Positions 1,169 to 59,210 of a stretch of DNA of 64,000 bases are shown piece after piece; the stretch's first letter is position 1; each line of letters opens with the position of its first letter. The notes under the pieces were generated by a model. The model had not been told where the DNA came from. It did not search any database and was given only the letters and a program-made list of their open reading frames with translations. The DNA is from an uncultured Selenomonadales bacterium (GTDB taxonomy: Bacteria > Bacillota > Negativicutes > Selenomonadales > Selenomonadaceae), in contig CAMHCS010000008.1 of assembly GCA_946183785.1 (NCBI GenBank), forward strand, positions 1 to 64,000. Direction: 5' to 3'. The position numbers and the translations under genes are program-made.

Positions 1169-1885
1169 TCACCGCGAAAGGATAAATTCGATATGCACGT
1201 CCGCCGTCAGCGACAGCGTCCCCGCTTCAATGGGCGTCGACTCCGTCGCCGCGTCCATGCTTTTCATCATCATGCCGTTGCTCTGACGCGGCTGAAACAT
1301 GCCCGTATTTTCCGTCACATGATGCACGCCGACGATGGACTTGCCGAGAGCGTGGGCGATGGCGTCCGCCTTGTCCCGCGCGTCTTTTACCGCGCTCTCC
1401 AGCGCACGCCTCCGCAGGCCGTCGGTGTCGCGAATCGAAAAGTCCAGCGAGCGGACAGCGTTCGCTCCGCTGGCCAACGCCGCGTCAACCACGTCGCCCG
1501 CGAGCGCCACGTTGCGCACTTTGACACGAATCGTGTTCGACGCGGTATATCCGATAATGACGCCGCGTTCATTTCTTTCACGACTGTATTCGGGACTGAA
1601 ATTGTAATCCTCCGTCTTGATATCCTTATCTTCAATGCCGAGTGCGGCAAGCGCATTGCGGATCGCCGTTGCCTTCGCCGCGTTTTCCTGCTGCGCCTCC
1701 CCCGCCGTTTCGGCACGCGTGACTATGCCAAGCGTGACCGCCGCCTGATCGGGCGTTCCCTGCACCATACCGCTGCCGCTGACGGACAAAATCGGCAGAT
1801 CAGGCTCCGCCGCCGCACCATCCGCCATCGGCGCGAAAAGCGCACAGCAAAGCAGTATTGCCGCCGGAAAAAATCTCATTTTCAT
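1169..1885 (-). CDS. SIMPL (DUF541) domain exported protein
   Basis: A 238-residue protein with an N-terminal signal sequence (MKMRFFPAAILLCCALFAP, then Ala-rich) followed by a SIMPL/DUF541 domain. Visible family features are 'LSVSGSGMVQGTPDQAAVTLG' -type opening strands around residues 38-58, an Ala/Glu-rich helix, and the closing 'SLTADVHIEFIL'. The reading frame extends upstream to 2143, but that extension only translates the 78-bp tandem repeat. The ATG at 1885 has GGAAGGAG just upstream and starts the signal peptide, so I chose it. SIMPL proteins are periplasmic or surface proteins of poorly defined role, often linked to oxidative stress. It lies directly upstream of the acyltransferase gene. 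Confidence 0.85.
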   Translation of the reverse strand: MKMRFFPAAILLCCALFAPMADGAAAEPDLPILSVSGSGMVQGTPDQAAVTLGIVTRAETAGEAQQENAAKATAIRNALAALGIEDKDIKTEDYNFSPEYSRERNERGVIIGYTASNTIRVKVRNVALAGDVVDAALASGANAVRSLDFSIRDTDGLRRRALESAVKDARDKADAIAHALGKSIVGVHHVTENTGMFQPRQSNGMMMKSMDAATESTPIEAGTLSLTADVHIEFILSR

Positions 1886-1915
1886 CGCAATCGTCTCCTT
1901 CCCAAACAAAAGTAT

Positions 1916-2106
1916 TATAACGCCTTTATTCAAATTTTGCCAACGGCAAAATTTCCTCTCTATGCGTTTCGACAAGGCGTTGACACGTCTTGTCATAACG
2001 CCTTTATTCAAATTTTGCCAACGGCATAATTTCCTCTCTATGCGTTTCGACAAGGCGTGGGCACGCCTTGTCATAACGCCTTTATTCAAATTTTGCCAAC
2101 GGCATA
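1916..2106. repeat. 78-bp tandem repeat, 2.4 copies, each with two nested palindromes
   Basis: Copies start at 1916, 1994 and 2072 (the third is cut off after about 34 bases) with an exact 78-base period and only a few substitutions. Each full unit holds palindrome 1, AAATTTTGCC-AAC-GGCAAAATTT in copy 1 (1932-1954), and palindrome 2, GACAAGGCGTG-GG-CACGCCTTGTC in copy 2 (2049-2072). Palindrome 2 of copy 1 keeps pairing through a G-T wobble. The array fills the space between the divergent SIMPL and C_GCAxxG genes, where both promoters must lie. Confidence 0.9.
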
Positions 2107-2177
2107 AAGAAGGATTTTGGCAGAAAAAAAAGAATATTATCAAGAGGGAATCCTATCAAAAAAAGGAGGCACAAAAC

Positions 2178-2690
2178 ATGGCGGAGAAAAAAGTTTACAC
2201 AGAAGCTGAGATTGAGGAAATCGCTGAAAAAGCTTCACAGACGGCGATGGAGCACTTCAAGCACGGGCTGAACTGCGGCGAGTGCGTGTTTCAGGGCTAT
2301 CTGGAGCAAAAGACGACGGACTATCCACCGGAGGTCGTAGCGCTGGTCTCGGGCATGGGCGGCGGAATGGGCTTCACGAAGCACACCTGCGGCGCGGTAA
2401 ACGCCGGCATGTGCGTAATCGGCAGCCGCCATGGACGGAAGAACCCGTTTGCGAAGGAATCCTTCGAGGACCGCGTCGACGAGCTGCACCATGAGGGCAC
2501 GGGCGTCTACCCGCGCCACGGCGAATATATCCGTAAATGTATTGCCGAATTCGGCACCATTGAATGCCGCGACCTCTGTTTCCCATTTGACGAGTCGACG
2601 CCGGAGGGCAAGAAGGAACGCGCGCGCAACTGCAAGAAGATTATCGGTTGGTGCGCGAAGGAAGCGACGAAGGCCGCTTTGAAGGAGTAA
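2178..2690 (+). CDS. C_GCAxxG_C_C family protein (putative redox/metal-binding)
   Basis: A 170-residue soluble protein. 'NCGECVFQGYLE' (residues 32-43), 'KHTCGAVNAGMCVIG' (about 71-85) and later Cys residues at CIAEFG, ECRDLCFPF and NCKKIIGWC match the Cys-rich C_GCAxxG_C_C family, whose members bind metal or a cofactor in anaerobes and have no firmly defined reaction. The open frame starts at 1962 inside the repeat array, but ATG 2178 is preceded by AAGGAGG at 2163-2169, so I start there. It ends five bases before the CoA-disulfide reductase gene, suggesting an operon for thiol/redox metabolism. Confidence 0.85.
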   Translation: MAEKKVYTEAEIEEIAEKASQTAMEHFKHGLNCGECVFQGYLEQKTTDYPPEVVALVSGMGGGMGFTKHTCGAVNAGMCVIGSRHGRKNPFAKESFEDRVDELHHEGTGVYPRHGEYIRKCIAEFGTIECRDLCFPFDESTPEGKKERARNCKKIIGWCAKEATKAALKE

Positions 2691-2694
2691 CAAT

Positions 2695-4392
2695 ATGGCG
2701 AAACGAATTTTGATCGTCGGCGGCGTAACGGGAGGTGCTTCTGCAGCCGCCCGTCTTCGCCGCCTCGATGAGAGCGCCGAGATCGTGATTTTCGAGCGCG
2801 GCCCGCACGTCTCGTACTCGAATTGCAGCCTGCCCTATTTTTTGAGCCGCGTCGTACCGGACAGCGGCAGCCTCTTAATGGTCACGCCGGAGCGATTCAA
2901 AAAACAATACAATATTGAAGTCCGTACGGAAACCGAAGTGACGTCCATCGACCGCGCAGCGAAAACAATCCGCGTGAAGCGGCATGCCGACGGCACAGAA
3001 TCCACGGAGCGCTACGACGTGCTTATTCTTTCGCCCGGCGCGGAGCCGATCCGTCCGAAGAGCATCGAAGGCGTCGACCGTGAAAACGTGTTCACCGTCC
3101 GCAGCGTAGCCGATATCGAAAAGCTCGATGCCTGGCTCGCCGCCCGCGACGTAAAAGACGTGGCGGTGGTCGGCGGCGGCTTTATCGGATGCGAAGTCGC
3201 GGAAAACCTTCGTGAAAGCAAACGAAATGTCGCTCTGATTGAGGCCATGCCGCAAATCATGGCGCCCTTTGATTTCGACATGGCGCAGATTTTGCACAAG
3301 GAAATGCTCGATCACGGCGTCACGCTCATCCTGAAAGACGGTGTGAAGCGAATCGGCGATAAAGAGCTCGAACTTGCCAGTGGGCGCACGATTAAAGCGG
3401 GGGCGACGGTGCTCGCCATCGGCGTCCGCCCGGAAACGGAGCTTGCGAAAGCCGCAGGACTTGAAATCGGCGACACGGGCGGAATCCGCGTCAATCATAA
3501 TTATCAGACCAGCGATTCTTCCATCTATGCGGTTGGCGACGCCATAGAAGTCTTTCATCGTCTCACGCGCAAATGGACGCGCCTCGCGCTGGCATGGCCC
3601 GCCCAAATGCAGGGCCGCGCCGCCGCCGACCACATATGCGGCCTCTCCCATCGTTCGAAGGGCGTCATCGGCTCGTCGGTGCTCCGCGTTTTCAATCTGT
3701 ATGCCGCCTGCACCGGGCTGTCGGAGCGTGCGGCGAAGGAGGCGGGCATTCCCTGCGAATCGGCTTGCGTCATTCCTGCAGACAAGGTCAGTCTGATGCC
3801 GGGCAGCGCGCCGATTCACCTGAAGCTCGTTTTCGAGACTCCCACAGGACGGATGCTCGGCGCTCAGGCCATCGGAAAAGACGCGGCCGATCGCCGCATC
3901 GACGTCATTGCCGCGCTTATTTCCATGGGCGGCACATTGGAAGACCTCAAAGAAACAGAACTTTGCTATGCGCCCGTCGTCGGCACGGCAAAGGACGCCG
4001 TCCACATGGCGGCGCTGGTCGGGTTGAACCTGCTTGACGGACGTTTCCGCCAGGTTCCGGTCTCAGCGGTGCGCGGCCTTGTCGAAAGCGGCGCCTGCAT
4101 CGTGGATGTGCGCGAAAAAGGAGAATATGCCGCAAGCCATCTGAAAAACGCGGTCAACATTCCCTTGAGCGAACTTCGCGGGCGCATGGACGAAATCCCC
4201 AAAAATCGCCCTGTATATCTCCATTGCCGTTCCAGCCAAAGAAGCTACAATGCGATTATGGCGCTGCAGCAGCACGGCTTCGACAACGTGGTCAACATCG
4301 CGGGCTCCTATCTCGGCATTTGCCTGTACGAATATGCCCAGGACGTCCTCGAAGGAAGAGAAAAAATCGTAACTGCATACAATTTTAATTAA
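2695..4392 (+). CDS. CoA-disulfide reductase-type flavoprotein with C-terminal rhodanese domain
   Basis: A 565-residue pyridine nucleotide-disulfide oxidoreductase. The FAD site 'ILIVGGVTGGASAAARLRR' is at the N terminus; a single active-site Cys lies in 'YSNCSLPY' (Cys44), as in CoA disulfide reductases; the NAD(P)H fold 'VAVVGGGFIGCEVAENL' is around residue 155; a dimerisation domain follows. A rhodanese domain occupies about 455-540 with catalytic Cys511 in 'LHCRSSQRS'. Known fusions of this kind (CoADR-RHD/Npsr type) reduce CoA disulfide, CoA-persulfide or polysulfide. The exact substrate is inferred. It is co-oriented with and 4 bases from the preceding gene and followed by a terminator. 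Confidence 0.9.
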   Translation: MAKRILIVGGVTGGASAAARLRRLDESAEIVIFERGPHVSYSNCSLPYFLSRVVPDSGSLLMVTPERFKKQYNIEVRTETEVTSIDRAAKTIRVKRHADGTESTERYDVLILSPGAEPIRPKSIEGVDRENVFTVRSVADIEKLDAWLAARDVKDVAVVGGGFIGCEVAENLRESKRNVALIEAMPQIMAPFDFDMAQILHKEMLDHGVTLILKDGVKRIGDKELELASGRTIKAGATVLAIGVRPETELAKAAGLEIGDTGGIRVNHNYQTSDSSIYAVGDAIEVFHRLTRKWTRLALAWPAQMQGRAAADHICGLSHRSKGVIGSSVLRVFNLYAACTGLSERAAKEAGIPCESACVIPADKVSLMPGSAPIHLKLVFETPTGRMLGAQAIGKDAADRRIDVIAALISMGGTLEDLKETELCYAPVVGTAKDAVHMAALVGLNLLDGRFRQVPVSAVRGLVESGACIVDVREKGEYAASHLKNAVNIPLSELRGRMDEIPKNRPVYLHCRSSQRSYNAIMALQQHGFDNVVNIAGSYLGICLYEYAQDVLEGREKIVTAYNFN

Positions 4393-4440: not shown

Positions 4441-4442
4441 CA

Positions 4443-4809
4443 TTGCGAGCACTCAATAAGCCGGGTTCTGTTTCGCTTCCGCGACGGCAATCATTTATCT
4501 AGGCCGCCTGTCGCCAGGCGGCTCCAGCGACTCAACCCGGAAGGTTCCGCGGGCCGCATCATCCCTTCCCTATTCGGTCTTGCTCCGTGTGGGGTTTACC
4601 AAGCCGCCCGGTTGCCCGGACGCTGGTGCGCTCTTGCCGCACCTTTCCACCCTTACCTCCGCCATAAATGACGAAGGCGGTTTTCGTTTCTATGGCACTT
4701 TCCCGGAGGTTGCCCTCGCCGGACGTTATCCGGCACACTGCCCTGTGGAGCCCGGACTTTCCTCTTGCGGCTTATACGTCCGCCAGCGATTGCCTTTCAT
4801 GCTCGCAGG
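4443..4809 (-). ncRNA. rnpB: RNase P RNA, bacterial
   Basis: The minus strand carries the hallmark GAGGAAAGTCCGGGCTCC (around 4750-4767) and the 3' universal element ACAGAACCCGGCTTAT (around 4454-4469). The ends pair: TGCGAGCA at 4807-4800 with TGCTCGCA at 4451-4444 forms an 8-bp P1 helix, which fixes the borders to within a few bases. The RNA is the catalytic subunit that matures tRNA 5' ends. It sits between convergent and co-oriented protein genes with no competing ORF. Confidence 0.97.
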
Positions 4810-57542: not shown

Positions 57543-59210
57543 ATGTTAAAGGACGGAAAAATCTGGATTGCGCAAAACGACGACGGCGAAAACATCTTTA
57601 TCCTGCTGAAAATGGCCAACCGCCACGGACTCGTGGCAGGCGCCACCGGCACCGGCAAGACCGTCACGCTGAAAGTGATGGCGGAGACCTTCAGCGAAAT
57701 GGGCGTCCCCGTGTTCATGGCGGACGTCAAAGGCGACATCGCCGGCATGCTTGCTCCCGGCACGGACAGCGAGGACATGCAGAAGCGCATCGCGAAATTC
57801 GGCCTCGCGGAGGCCGGCTTCAGCTACAAGGGCTGCCCGGTGACCATCTGGGACATTTTCGGGAAAAACGGCATCCCGCTCCGCACCACCGTCTCGGAAA
57901 TCGGTCCGCTGCTCCTTGCGCGCATTCTTGAGCTGAACGACCTTCAAAGCGCGCTCCTCAACATCATCTTCAAGATTGCCGACGACAACAACCTGCTCCT
58001 GATCGACACAAAGGACATCAAAGCCTGCGTCAACTACATCCAGGATCACCGGGGAGACTTCGAGCCGGACTACGGCAAGATGAGCGCCGCCTCCCTCTCT
58101 GCGATCCAGCGTTCCATTGTCGCTCTGGAGCTCGCGGGCGGCGACGTATTCTTTGGCGAGCCCGCGCTGAACATCCACGACTGGATGACGCAGGACATGG
58201 GCAAAGGCATGATCAACATCCTTGACAGCGAAAGTCTGATCAGCAACGGCAAACTCTACTCGACGTTCCTGCTCTGGATGCTGTCCGAGCTTTTCGAGAC
58301 GCTGCCCGAAGTCGGCGACATGCCGAAGCCGAAGATGGTCTTCTTCTTTGACGAGGCGCATCTGCTGTTCGACGGCGCTTCGAAGGCGCTGCTTGACAAG
58401 ATCGAGCAGGTCGTCAAGCTGATCCGTTCGAAAGGCGTCGGCGTCTATTTCTGCACGCAGAATCCGCGCGACATTCCCGACGGCGTCCTCGCCCAGCTCG
58501 GCAACAAAGTCCAGCACGGTCTCCGCGCCTACACCCCCGCCGAGCAGAAATCGGTCAAGGCGGCGGCGGCCTCGTTCCGTGAAAATCCCGCGTTTGACGC
58601 GGTGGAGGTCATCACCTCCCTCGGCACCGGCAAAGCGCTCGTCTCTTTCCTCGGCGAGGACGGCGTTCCCGGTGTCGCGCAGAAGGTCTCGATCCTGCCG
58701 CCCCAGTGCAGCATGGGCGGCATCACCGAAAACCAGCGCGATCAGGCCATCAAGGGAAGCATGCTCTACGGCAAATATGCAGAGAGCTACGATTCCGACT
58801 CCGCCTATGAATTCCTGATGCGTCACGGCCAGGAGGAAGCAGCCGCCCGACAGCGTGCTGCCGCCGAAGCCGAACAGGCGAAGGAAGACGCGCGTCTCGC
58901 GAAAGAACAGGCAAAAGAAAACGCCCGTCTCGCAAAGGAGCAGGCGAAAGAGGAAGCGCGTATTGCCCGCGAACAGGCGAAAGAGGAAGCCCGCCTGGCA
59001 AAAGAGGCGGAAAAGCAGGCCGCTGCCGCGGAGCGCGCAAAGAACCAGGCCATCAAGTCCGTCGGCAACAGCGTCCTCGGCACGGTAGGCCGCGCCGTCG
59101 GCAAGAGCCTCGGAGCAAGCACGGTAGGCGGCTCCTTCGGCAAGAGCCTCGGCGGAAACCTCGGCGCCAGCCTTGCCCGCGGCCTCTTCGGAACCCTGTT
59201 CAAAGGCTGA
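57543..59210 (+). CDS. HerA-like (DUF853) ATPase with repeat and Gly-rich tail
   Basis: A 555-residue protein of the DUF853/HerA helicase-like group. Walker A 'GLVAGATGTGKTVTLKVMAE' (residues 29-48), 'PVFMADVKGDIAGM', Walker B 'MVFFFDEAHLLFDG' (about 265) and 'GVYFCTQNPRDIPDGVLAQLG' with the arginine-finger region. Residues 449-492 hold four 11-residue repeats of the type EARLAKEQAKE, a charged single helix; 505-555 are Gly/Ser/Leu-rich (VLGTVGRAVGKSLGAS). Family function is unknown; HerA itself is a DNA translocase. ATG 57543 follows AAGGAGG. It is monocistronic, with the terminator split by a MITE. Confidence 0.9.
   Translation: MLKDGKIWIAQNDDGENIFILLKMANRHGLVAGATGTGKTVTLKVMAETFSEMGVPVFMADVKGDIAGMLAPGTDSEDMQKRIAKFGLAEAGFSYKGCPVTIWDIFGKNGIPLRTTVSEIGPLLLARILELNDLQSALLNIIFKIADDNNLLLIDTKDIKACVNYIQDHRGDFEPDYGKMSAASLSAIQRSIVALELAGGDVFFGEPALNIHDWMTQDMGKGMINILDSESLISNGKLYSTFLLWMLSELFETLPEVGDMPKPKMVFFFDEAHLLFDGASKALLDKIEQVVKLIRSKGVGVYFCTQNPRDIPDGVLAQLGNKVQHGLRAYTPAEQKSVKAAAASFRENPAFDAVEVITSLGTGKALVSFLGEDGVPGVAQKVSILPPQCSMGGITENQRDQAIKGSMLYGKYAESYDSDSAYEFLMRHGQEEAAARQRAAAEAEQAKEDARLAKEQAKENARLAKEQAKEEARIAREQAKEEARLAKEAEKQAAAAERAKNQAIKSVGNSVLGTVGRAVGKSLGASTVGGSFGKSLGGNLGASLARGLFGTLFKG
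58887..59018 (+). repeat. Four 33-bp coding repeats in the HerA-like gene
   Basis: Units encode DARLAKEQAKE, NARLAKEQAKE, EARIAREQAKE and EARLAKEAEKQ. Third-position differences show the DNA has diverged while the 11-residue pattern is kept, as expected for a selected charged helix. Confidence 0.9.

Follow-up and report, generated by a model that had tools for sequence, protein, structure and literature searches.

A dispersed hairpin element of Selenomonadaceae, probably targeting and rebuilding TATAAT promoters, as the origin of a tandem array upstream of a SIMPL gene

Insertion sequences of the IS200/IS605 type have hairpin ends and an internal guide that pairs to the cleavage site; they keep the left target and are not known to produce a target duplication. 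Correia elements of Neisseria (CREE/NEMIS) are short and non-autonomous, lie mostly 5' of genes, create sigma-70 promoters at their ends and vary in placement between strains; they are most often 104-108 or 153-157 bp long, with inverted repeats at the ends and a TA target (PMC2649163, PMC10969869). The TnGBS, ISLre2 and ISKra4 groups, which code for Mutator-like DDE transposases, direct oriented insertions to sigma-A promoters, about 15-17 bp upstream of the -35 box, and leave the promoter whole (PMC3942029). The BOX elements of the pneumococcus are palindromic, are thought to be parasitic and contain tandem inner modules whose number varies between strains (PMC3049150). Insertion within a -10 box is described for none of the three in the excerpts cited here, and the titles and abstract openings of the surveyed literature name neither a -10-targeting element nor such repeats in Selenomonadaceae.

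The element reported here resembles Correia elements, as far as the cited excerpts describe them, in being short, non-autonomous and gene-upstream with a promoter at one end. It differs in being 75-80 bp long, in having asymmetric hairpins as ends and TATAAW as target, and in apparently rebuilding the promoter it hits, and on this description we did not assign it to the Correia elements. With the TnGBS, ISLre2 and ISKra4 groups, as portrayed in the cited excerpt, it shares promoter targeting with a fixed orientation, but it sits inside the -10 box and is non-coding. Like BOX it is palindromic with a variable number of tandem units; the modules differ, and the BOX excerpt does not describe -10 targeting. 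Hairpin ends, mosaic or tandem arrays and a single-strand fold under selection are common to the element, to REP/BIME repeats and to IS200/IS605 ends, from which it differs by its placement in promoters and by the lack of a Y1 transposase in three carrier genomes.

The array lies in a 64,000-nucleotide stretch of DNA (the window) from a genome, G000, that groups with rumen Selenomonadaceae MAGs, one of them named Schwartzia sp. Tandem Repeats Finder placed it at 1917-2107 (period 78, 2.4 copies, 96% matches), where it scored highest by a wide margin among 29 repeats reported for the window. The 78-bp array described in the first-pass annotation is thus real, with coordinates (1916-2106) that were one base off, and the neighbours named there, a SIMPL gene on one side and a Cys-rich redox gene on the other, were recovered (Table 1). 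The first two units (1917-1994 and 1995-2072) share 95% identity; of the third, only 35 nt are present (2073-2107). In the minus-strand direction, towards SIMPL, a unit runs TATGAC, hairpin B, GAAACGC, spacer, hairpin A, TGAATAAA and GGCGTTAT. The last unit, on the SIMPL side, terminates in GGCGTTATAAT and has TATAAT where the inner units have TATGAC. Each of the two full units folds far more stably than its shuffled versions, whichever strand is taken (z -4.2 to -5.4; equalled by 0 of 200 shuffles). Of the loops of 3 and 2 bases proposed earlier, the loop of 2 is true of palindrome 2 in the second unit (GACAAGGCGTG-GG-CACGCCTTGTC), whereas the first unit has a loop of 4. The reported substitution that keeps the pairing was also found: in the first unit a C of palindrome 2 is changed to T (G-C to G-U on the folded strand). 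A further change had been missed: in units 2 and 3 an A of palindrome 1 has become T, which breaks one pair.

Table 1. Coordinates of the array, its parts and its neighbours in the window.
Feature	Position	Strand	Evidence and remarks
SIMPL (DUF541) gene	1169..1885	-	PF04402, E 5.4e-56; ATG begins 28 nt beyond the -10 box; element promoter in front
-10 box TATAAT of the predicted SIMPL promoter, gene-proximal array end	1914..1919	-	Promoter scan, 11 of 12; plain TATAAT at the same place in two congeners without the element
-35 box TTGGCA (predicted), in right arm of hairpin A, spacer 18	1938..1943	-	Promoter scan
Gene-proximal full element copy (hairpin B, GAAACGC, hairpin A, GCGTTATAAT)	1914..1997	-	Covariance model R1, 90.2 bits
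Hairpin A, first copy, AAATTTTGCC-GTT-GGCAAAATTT	1932..1954	-	Folding; helix 3 of consensus, 100% of cells paired in 27 units
Hairpin B, first copy (GACAAGACGTGTCAACGCCTTGTC)	1971..1994	-	Folding; helix 1 of consensus, 6/8 pairs with changes on both sides
Second full element copy; TATGAC at the join with the first copy	1992..2075	-	Covariance model R1, 82.2 bits
Hairpin A, second copy, one pair broken	2010..2032	-	Unit comparison and folding
Hairpin B, second copy (GACAAGGCGTGCCCACGCCTTGTC)	2049..2072	-	Unit comparison and folding
Third copy, distal, truncated (right part: hairpin A remnant to GCGTTAT)	2073..2107	-	Repeat family D2; same truncation in G001
C_GCAxxG_C_C redox protein gene, divergent neighbour (context only)	2178..2690	+	PF09719, E 1.5e-20

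Elsewhere in the window Rfam matched a bacterial class A RNase P RNA (4442-4805, minus). A sub-threshold match to the antisense RNA V_AS7 (2720-2888, minus) falls on the 5' part of an oxidoreductase-like gene (2695-4392, named by eye) and is probably a coding-sequence resemblance. Tandem Repeats Finder also reported a 33-bp unit at 58872-59005 (4.1 copies, 73% matches), perhaps a coding repeat.

The unit of the array is one copy of a dispersed, hairpin-built element of 75-80 bp in Selenomonadaceae, and not an operator or terminator private to this locus. BLAST found diverged single copies elsewhere in the window's genome and matches in 20 of 60 genomes searched. We then used a covariance model (R1) built from 27 units. 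In the own genome it gave 25 matches at E<=1, several of which are antisense shadows, and in a sample of the family with about 30 candidates scored per genome it matched 66 of 151 genomes, from 17 of 30 genera; four relatives that were scanned more fully gave 29, 75, 76 and 50 matches. The first-pass annotation had taken hundreds of unrelated sites as the mark of a plain dispersed repeat; dispersal is indeed what we found, at tens of sites per genome and not hundreds. The carriers belong to a family of rumen and gut bacteria. Rfam had no match over the array at E<=1 and none over the copies at eight further loci at E<=0.1, the matches at those loci (tRNA, plastid 3'UTR, RNase MRP) lying outside the copies or far below the cut-off. 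The window units had no match in plasmid and phage collections, and the right-end pattern had no exact match in viral contigs.

On the minus strand the general unit reads TATrAC, hairpin B, GAAACGC, hairpin A and GCGTTATAAT, and it forms three helices: hairpin B, whose sequence is very variable; a pairing of AACGC with GCGTT that encloses hairpin A; and hairpin A itself, with arms such as TTTTGCC/GGCAAAA, TTTTGTC/GACAAAA and others. Several variants were encountered. Long forms (L159, L162, L164, L167, L175, L198-L200, L205 and L147, from G029, G084 and G036) contain more palindromes in the loop of hairpin B (GATGTCCCCCACTTCTGTAAGTGGGGG..., then GGCGGGAG..CTCCCGCC), and L175 carries a further insert inside that loop. 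The hairpins of the long forms were considered as ends of Y1 insertion sequences and rejected: of the Y1 loci compared only one was matched, and over the element's own right part. Most of a group of copies in G036 (L127-L129, L132, L136, L138, L108, L118 and L037) have a second palindrome (e.g. CCCCCTCCGGGGGCTAGCTTCGCGTCGC) between TGAA and CAATGCGTTAT; L118 and L037 hold a longer element with inverted ends ACTAGTGTCCCGCCTCGTTCA...TGAACGAGGTGGGACACTAG, and these are nested mobile palindromes. At L306 (G005, orthologous to L068 of the own genome) one copy is apparently inverted inside or beside another, which gives a larger palindrome.

The decisive evidence for insertion into TATAAT comes from orthologous sites with and without the element. 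Genomes without it have a plain TATAAT promoter at the same place; in genomes with it, 75-80 bp lie exactly between TAT and AAT (measured inserts: 75, 79, 80 and 80), the gene side again reads TATAAT, and the old -35 box can often still be seen upstream. At a permease locus of genus g16 the gene start was found in 22 of 22 species, 3 filled and 19 empty, and the empty hexamer was TATAAT in 18 of the 19 and TACAAT in one. The empty site of G165 reads TTGTAA-N18-TATAAT-AGGCAGG. The filled site of G025 has the same flank, TAT, 75 bp of element and AAT-AGGCAGG, so that TATAAC stands at the end away from the gene and TATAAT at the end next to it. In the window's genus 8 of 11 genomes yielded the SIMPL gene: two sites are empty with TATAAT (G007 and G010, ...CTGC-TATAAT), five are filled with differing unit numbers and one holds a remnant only (G002). 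G003 has one unit, beginning ...CTGC-TATAAC, and G006 likewise one; G008 has two, the distal one decayed; G001 has one and a truncated remnant; and G000 has two and a remnant. Such differences in unit number between species at one and the same locus fit tandem duplication after insertion. Nine further loci of the own genome were read in congeners. Seven were tallied by script (L058 and L068, which have nested or inverted remnants, were left out) and gave 14 filled and 42 empty sites, with TATAAT as the best promoter hexamer in 36 of the 42; this tally includes an "empty" speD site in G003 cut by a contig end, a larE site in G005 with a separate remnant downstream and a few hexamers picked away from the expected place. 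Individual pairs are clear: at prs (G000 filled, G003 empty) the flank is identical up to TTTATAA, at serA G005 is filled (TATGAC) and G007 empty (TATAAT), speD gives another such pair, and rnj is filled in G000 and G002 and empty in eight genomes.

In order to look for the old -35 box we scored 38 flanks upstream of the distal junction, two of which contain remnants of another copy (L131, L120). The mean best match to TTGACA at a spacer of 16-18 was 3.18 of 6 compared to 2.49 (sd 0.14) in shuffles, with 0 of 2000 shuffles as high, and 4 of 6 was reached by 42% of the flanks, compared to 11% at displaced positions. With a stricter set of 27 flanks the values were 3.04 vs 2.50 (3 of 2000 as high), though its filter for element remnants was over-strict and dropped 11 of the 38 including clean ones (such as L048). 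This excess indicates that many insertions hit existing promoters, even though 22 of the 38 flanks do not reach 4 of 6.

The best sigma-70 promoter match of the array region is TTGGCA-N18-TATAAT facing SIMPL (11 of 12). Neither this complete predicted promoter at the gene-proximal array end nor the insertion point in the -10 box had been noted in the first-pass annotation. For the wider family we reduced 228 matches to 214 by removing antisense shadows, to 203 by removing duplicates and to 181 arrays, whose sizes are undercounts as tandem neighbours overlap by 6 nt and cmsearch leaves some unreported (e.g. the window's second copy). The arrays end in TATAAT in 150 cases and in TATAAA in 12, a result that is partly circular as the letters TATAAT are in the search model; 135 of the 150 have a -35 of at least 4/6 at a spacer of 16-18. 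A same-strand gene follows downstream in 118 of 140 arrays in five genomes at a median distance of 48 nt, and for the remainder the gene is on the opposite strand (11), there is none (7) or the array was called inside a gene (4). These gene calls come from a home-made caller that replaced a poorer first one, and by eye at least 3 of the 22 arrays not counted as same-strand are miscalls (L047 SIMPL, L048 prs, L023). The divergent setting named in the first-pass annotation turned out to be incidental: upstream of the 118, the gene is co-directional in 77 cases, divergent in 33 and undetermined in 8. The genes downstream are unrelated in function (the eight scanned include PRPP synthetase, RNase J, SAM decarboxylase, LarE, transporters and phosphoglycerate dehydrogenase), and at L020 a tRNA gene follows the element. 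The 22 TATAAT sites in the window fall in coding sequence (9), within 150 nt upstream of a same-strand gene (8) or elsewhere (5). Because TATAAT is already common upstream of genes there, the element need not sense promoters: a preference for TATAAW and the loss of insertions in genes would nearly explain its placement.

A similar non-coding stretch (AAAGGTGCTCGCCGGTAAACGGTCAGCCC...) lies just downstream of the element's TATAAT at four loci, L186, L188 and L193 of G007 and L059 of the own genome. It has no Rfam match. In three of the four the opposite strand holds a short hydrophobic ORF of 22-31 aa with a purine-rich ribosome site (e.g. MSVYDFFAFLVLLVALIVSLKA), and by analogy the arrangement resembles a type I toxin-antitoxin module that might use the element as its RNA promoter.

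Immediately after the TAT on the left stand bases that form pairs with the inner foot of hairpin B (AAC/GTT, GAC/GTC, ATC/GAT, GTC/GAC) and so belong to the element, which sets the left junction directly after TAT. The right junction allows two readings that both fit the sequence: the element may run to the end of GCGTTAT, with AAT or AAA contributed by the host, or the TAT may be a duplication of 3 bp. In the window copy the original left junction is no longer present, and the insertion point there was read from relatives. The strongest alternative is an ordinary MITE derived from an insertion sequence with a DDE transposase and a short target duplication (TAT or TTATAA). The element is short, non-coding and dispersed with filled and empty orthologous sites, as is expected of a MITE, and its nested inserts are typical of MITEs; in copies of the TATAAC type TTATAA stands at both ends and an 8-bp inverted repeat, TTATAACG...CGTTATAA, can be seen by eye. 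This repeat is confined to that type, TAT at both ends may be duplication or element sequence, and in copies of the TATGAC, TATATC and TATGTC types the left bases pair inside the element and are thus its own, not a target copy. There is also no longer terminal inverted repeat and no parent insertion sequence among the fetched loci. We consider an ordinary DDE MITE unlikely, though it deserves some weight. Integron attC sites have the core sites RYYYAAC and GTTRRRY; the element's right end GTTATAA and left end TTATRAC, compared by eye, did not place it among them.

For the preferred reading, a mobile element that targets TATAAT, a route of movement can be proposed. The end hairpins, the pairing of GAAACGC with the right-end GCGTT (98.5% of cells paired), the left target TAT that is kept and the lack of a sure target duplication all liken it to IS200/IS605 ends, and by this analogy movement through a folded single strand is possible, although we would not rely on it. 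A closely related suggestion is that of REP/BIME elements moved by a RAYT (Y1) transposase: the element has two hairpins per unit, tandem mosaic arrays and, in related genomes, nested palindromes. The Y1 domain (PF01797) had 0 matches in the carrier genomes G000, G007 and G036, even though G036 has 75 R1 matches, whereas it is present in G017, which has no R1 match; the placement in -10 boxes upstream of genes and the fixed direction of insertion also speak against REP/BIME. We did not assign the element to this group, and find such an origin improbable.

Selection acts on the folded strand of the element and not on a fixed string of letters, as the compensatory changes demonstrate. The sequence-based alignment of the 27 units has 95.6% of its cells paired and changes on both sides in 10 of 21 pairs; its covariation score is 0.250, as against 0.121 for shuffles, of which 0 in 500 came as high. 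When 116 distinct rows were fitted to the model, which gives an alignment that leans towards structure, both-sided change reached 17 of 21 pairs. These changes weigh against a multi-site operator, one of the three options offered by the first-pass annotation, in which a regulator would bind palindrome A over the -35 box and the units would have multiplied for tighter control. Palindrome A does overlap the -35 box and the core TTTG..CAAA is nearly invariant in the 27 aligned units, but the two arms vary together in ways that preserve the pairing (GCC/GGC to GTC/GAC, with further forms TCC/GGA and ACC/GGT), the loop has 3 or 4 bases, the downstream genes are unrelated, which also leaves no regulon, and species without the element keep an ordinary promoter. 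An operator is very unlikely.

For 71% of copies the closest relative is another copy of their own genome, compared to 23% for shuffled labels (G029 81%, G036 92%, G084 68%, G000 33% and G007 39%), which points to lineage-specific amplification; in the window's genus the movement may be old, as only 33-39% of copies have their nearest relative in the same genome. An ancestral promoter type that is immobile and inherited by descent could account for the SIMPL and purine permease loci being filled in several species, yet copies cluster by genome and several loci have clean empty sites with matching flanks (rnj 2/10 and g16 permease 3/22 filled); the empty sites refute it unless all of them are precise deletions, and we hold it to be highly implausible. 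A pair of terminators between divergent genes, as also suggested in the first-pass annotation, would suit the two stable hairpins but is next to impossible with 0 terminator-like sites in 1800-2250. The third option offered there, a short mobile palindromic repeat that has expanded, is the one that was borne out.

With the dispersal, structure, covariation, filled and empty sites and promoter geometry observed, we regard it as very probable from these comparisons that the array is a tandemly grown insertion of a mobile, non-coding element that targets TATAAT and rebuilds promoters. The geometry of insertion has good support: a single copy of 75-80 bp would insert between TAT and AAT of the hexamer, and the element end ...GCGTTAT would leave a perfect TATAAT towards the gene. 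The right arm of hairpin A would supply a new -35 box at 17-18 bp, so that a promoter is rebuilt in the same place and direction; we infer from the sequence that this promoter is used. At SIMPL the insertion would later have been duplicated in tandem as 78-bp units by slippage or unequal recombination. The mobilising enzyme was presumably supplied from elsewhere or has been lost. We tentatively propose, at rather less than even confidence, a class of elements that use the -10 box as attachment site, are moved as a folded single strand by a separate enzyme and leave TATAAT intact on the gene side together with their own -35 box; such elements could spread at low cost and set interchangeable, duplicable promoters in front of tens of unrelated genes.

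Most insertions into a promoter core destroy it, whereas this element hits the six bases that matter most and restores them, adding a -35 box of its own. Provided that the rebuilt promoters are active, these bacteria would have a natural means of exchanging one promoter for another at many genes, and the growth of tandem arrays would bring about graded changes in promoter architecture between species. The finding also makes it possible to test whether a mobile element recognises TATAAT itself, and by which enzyme.
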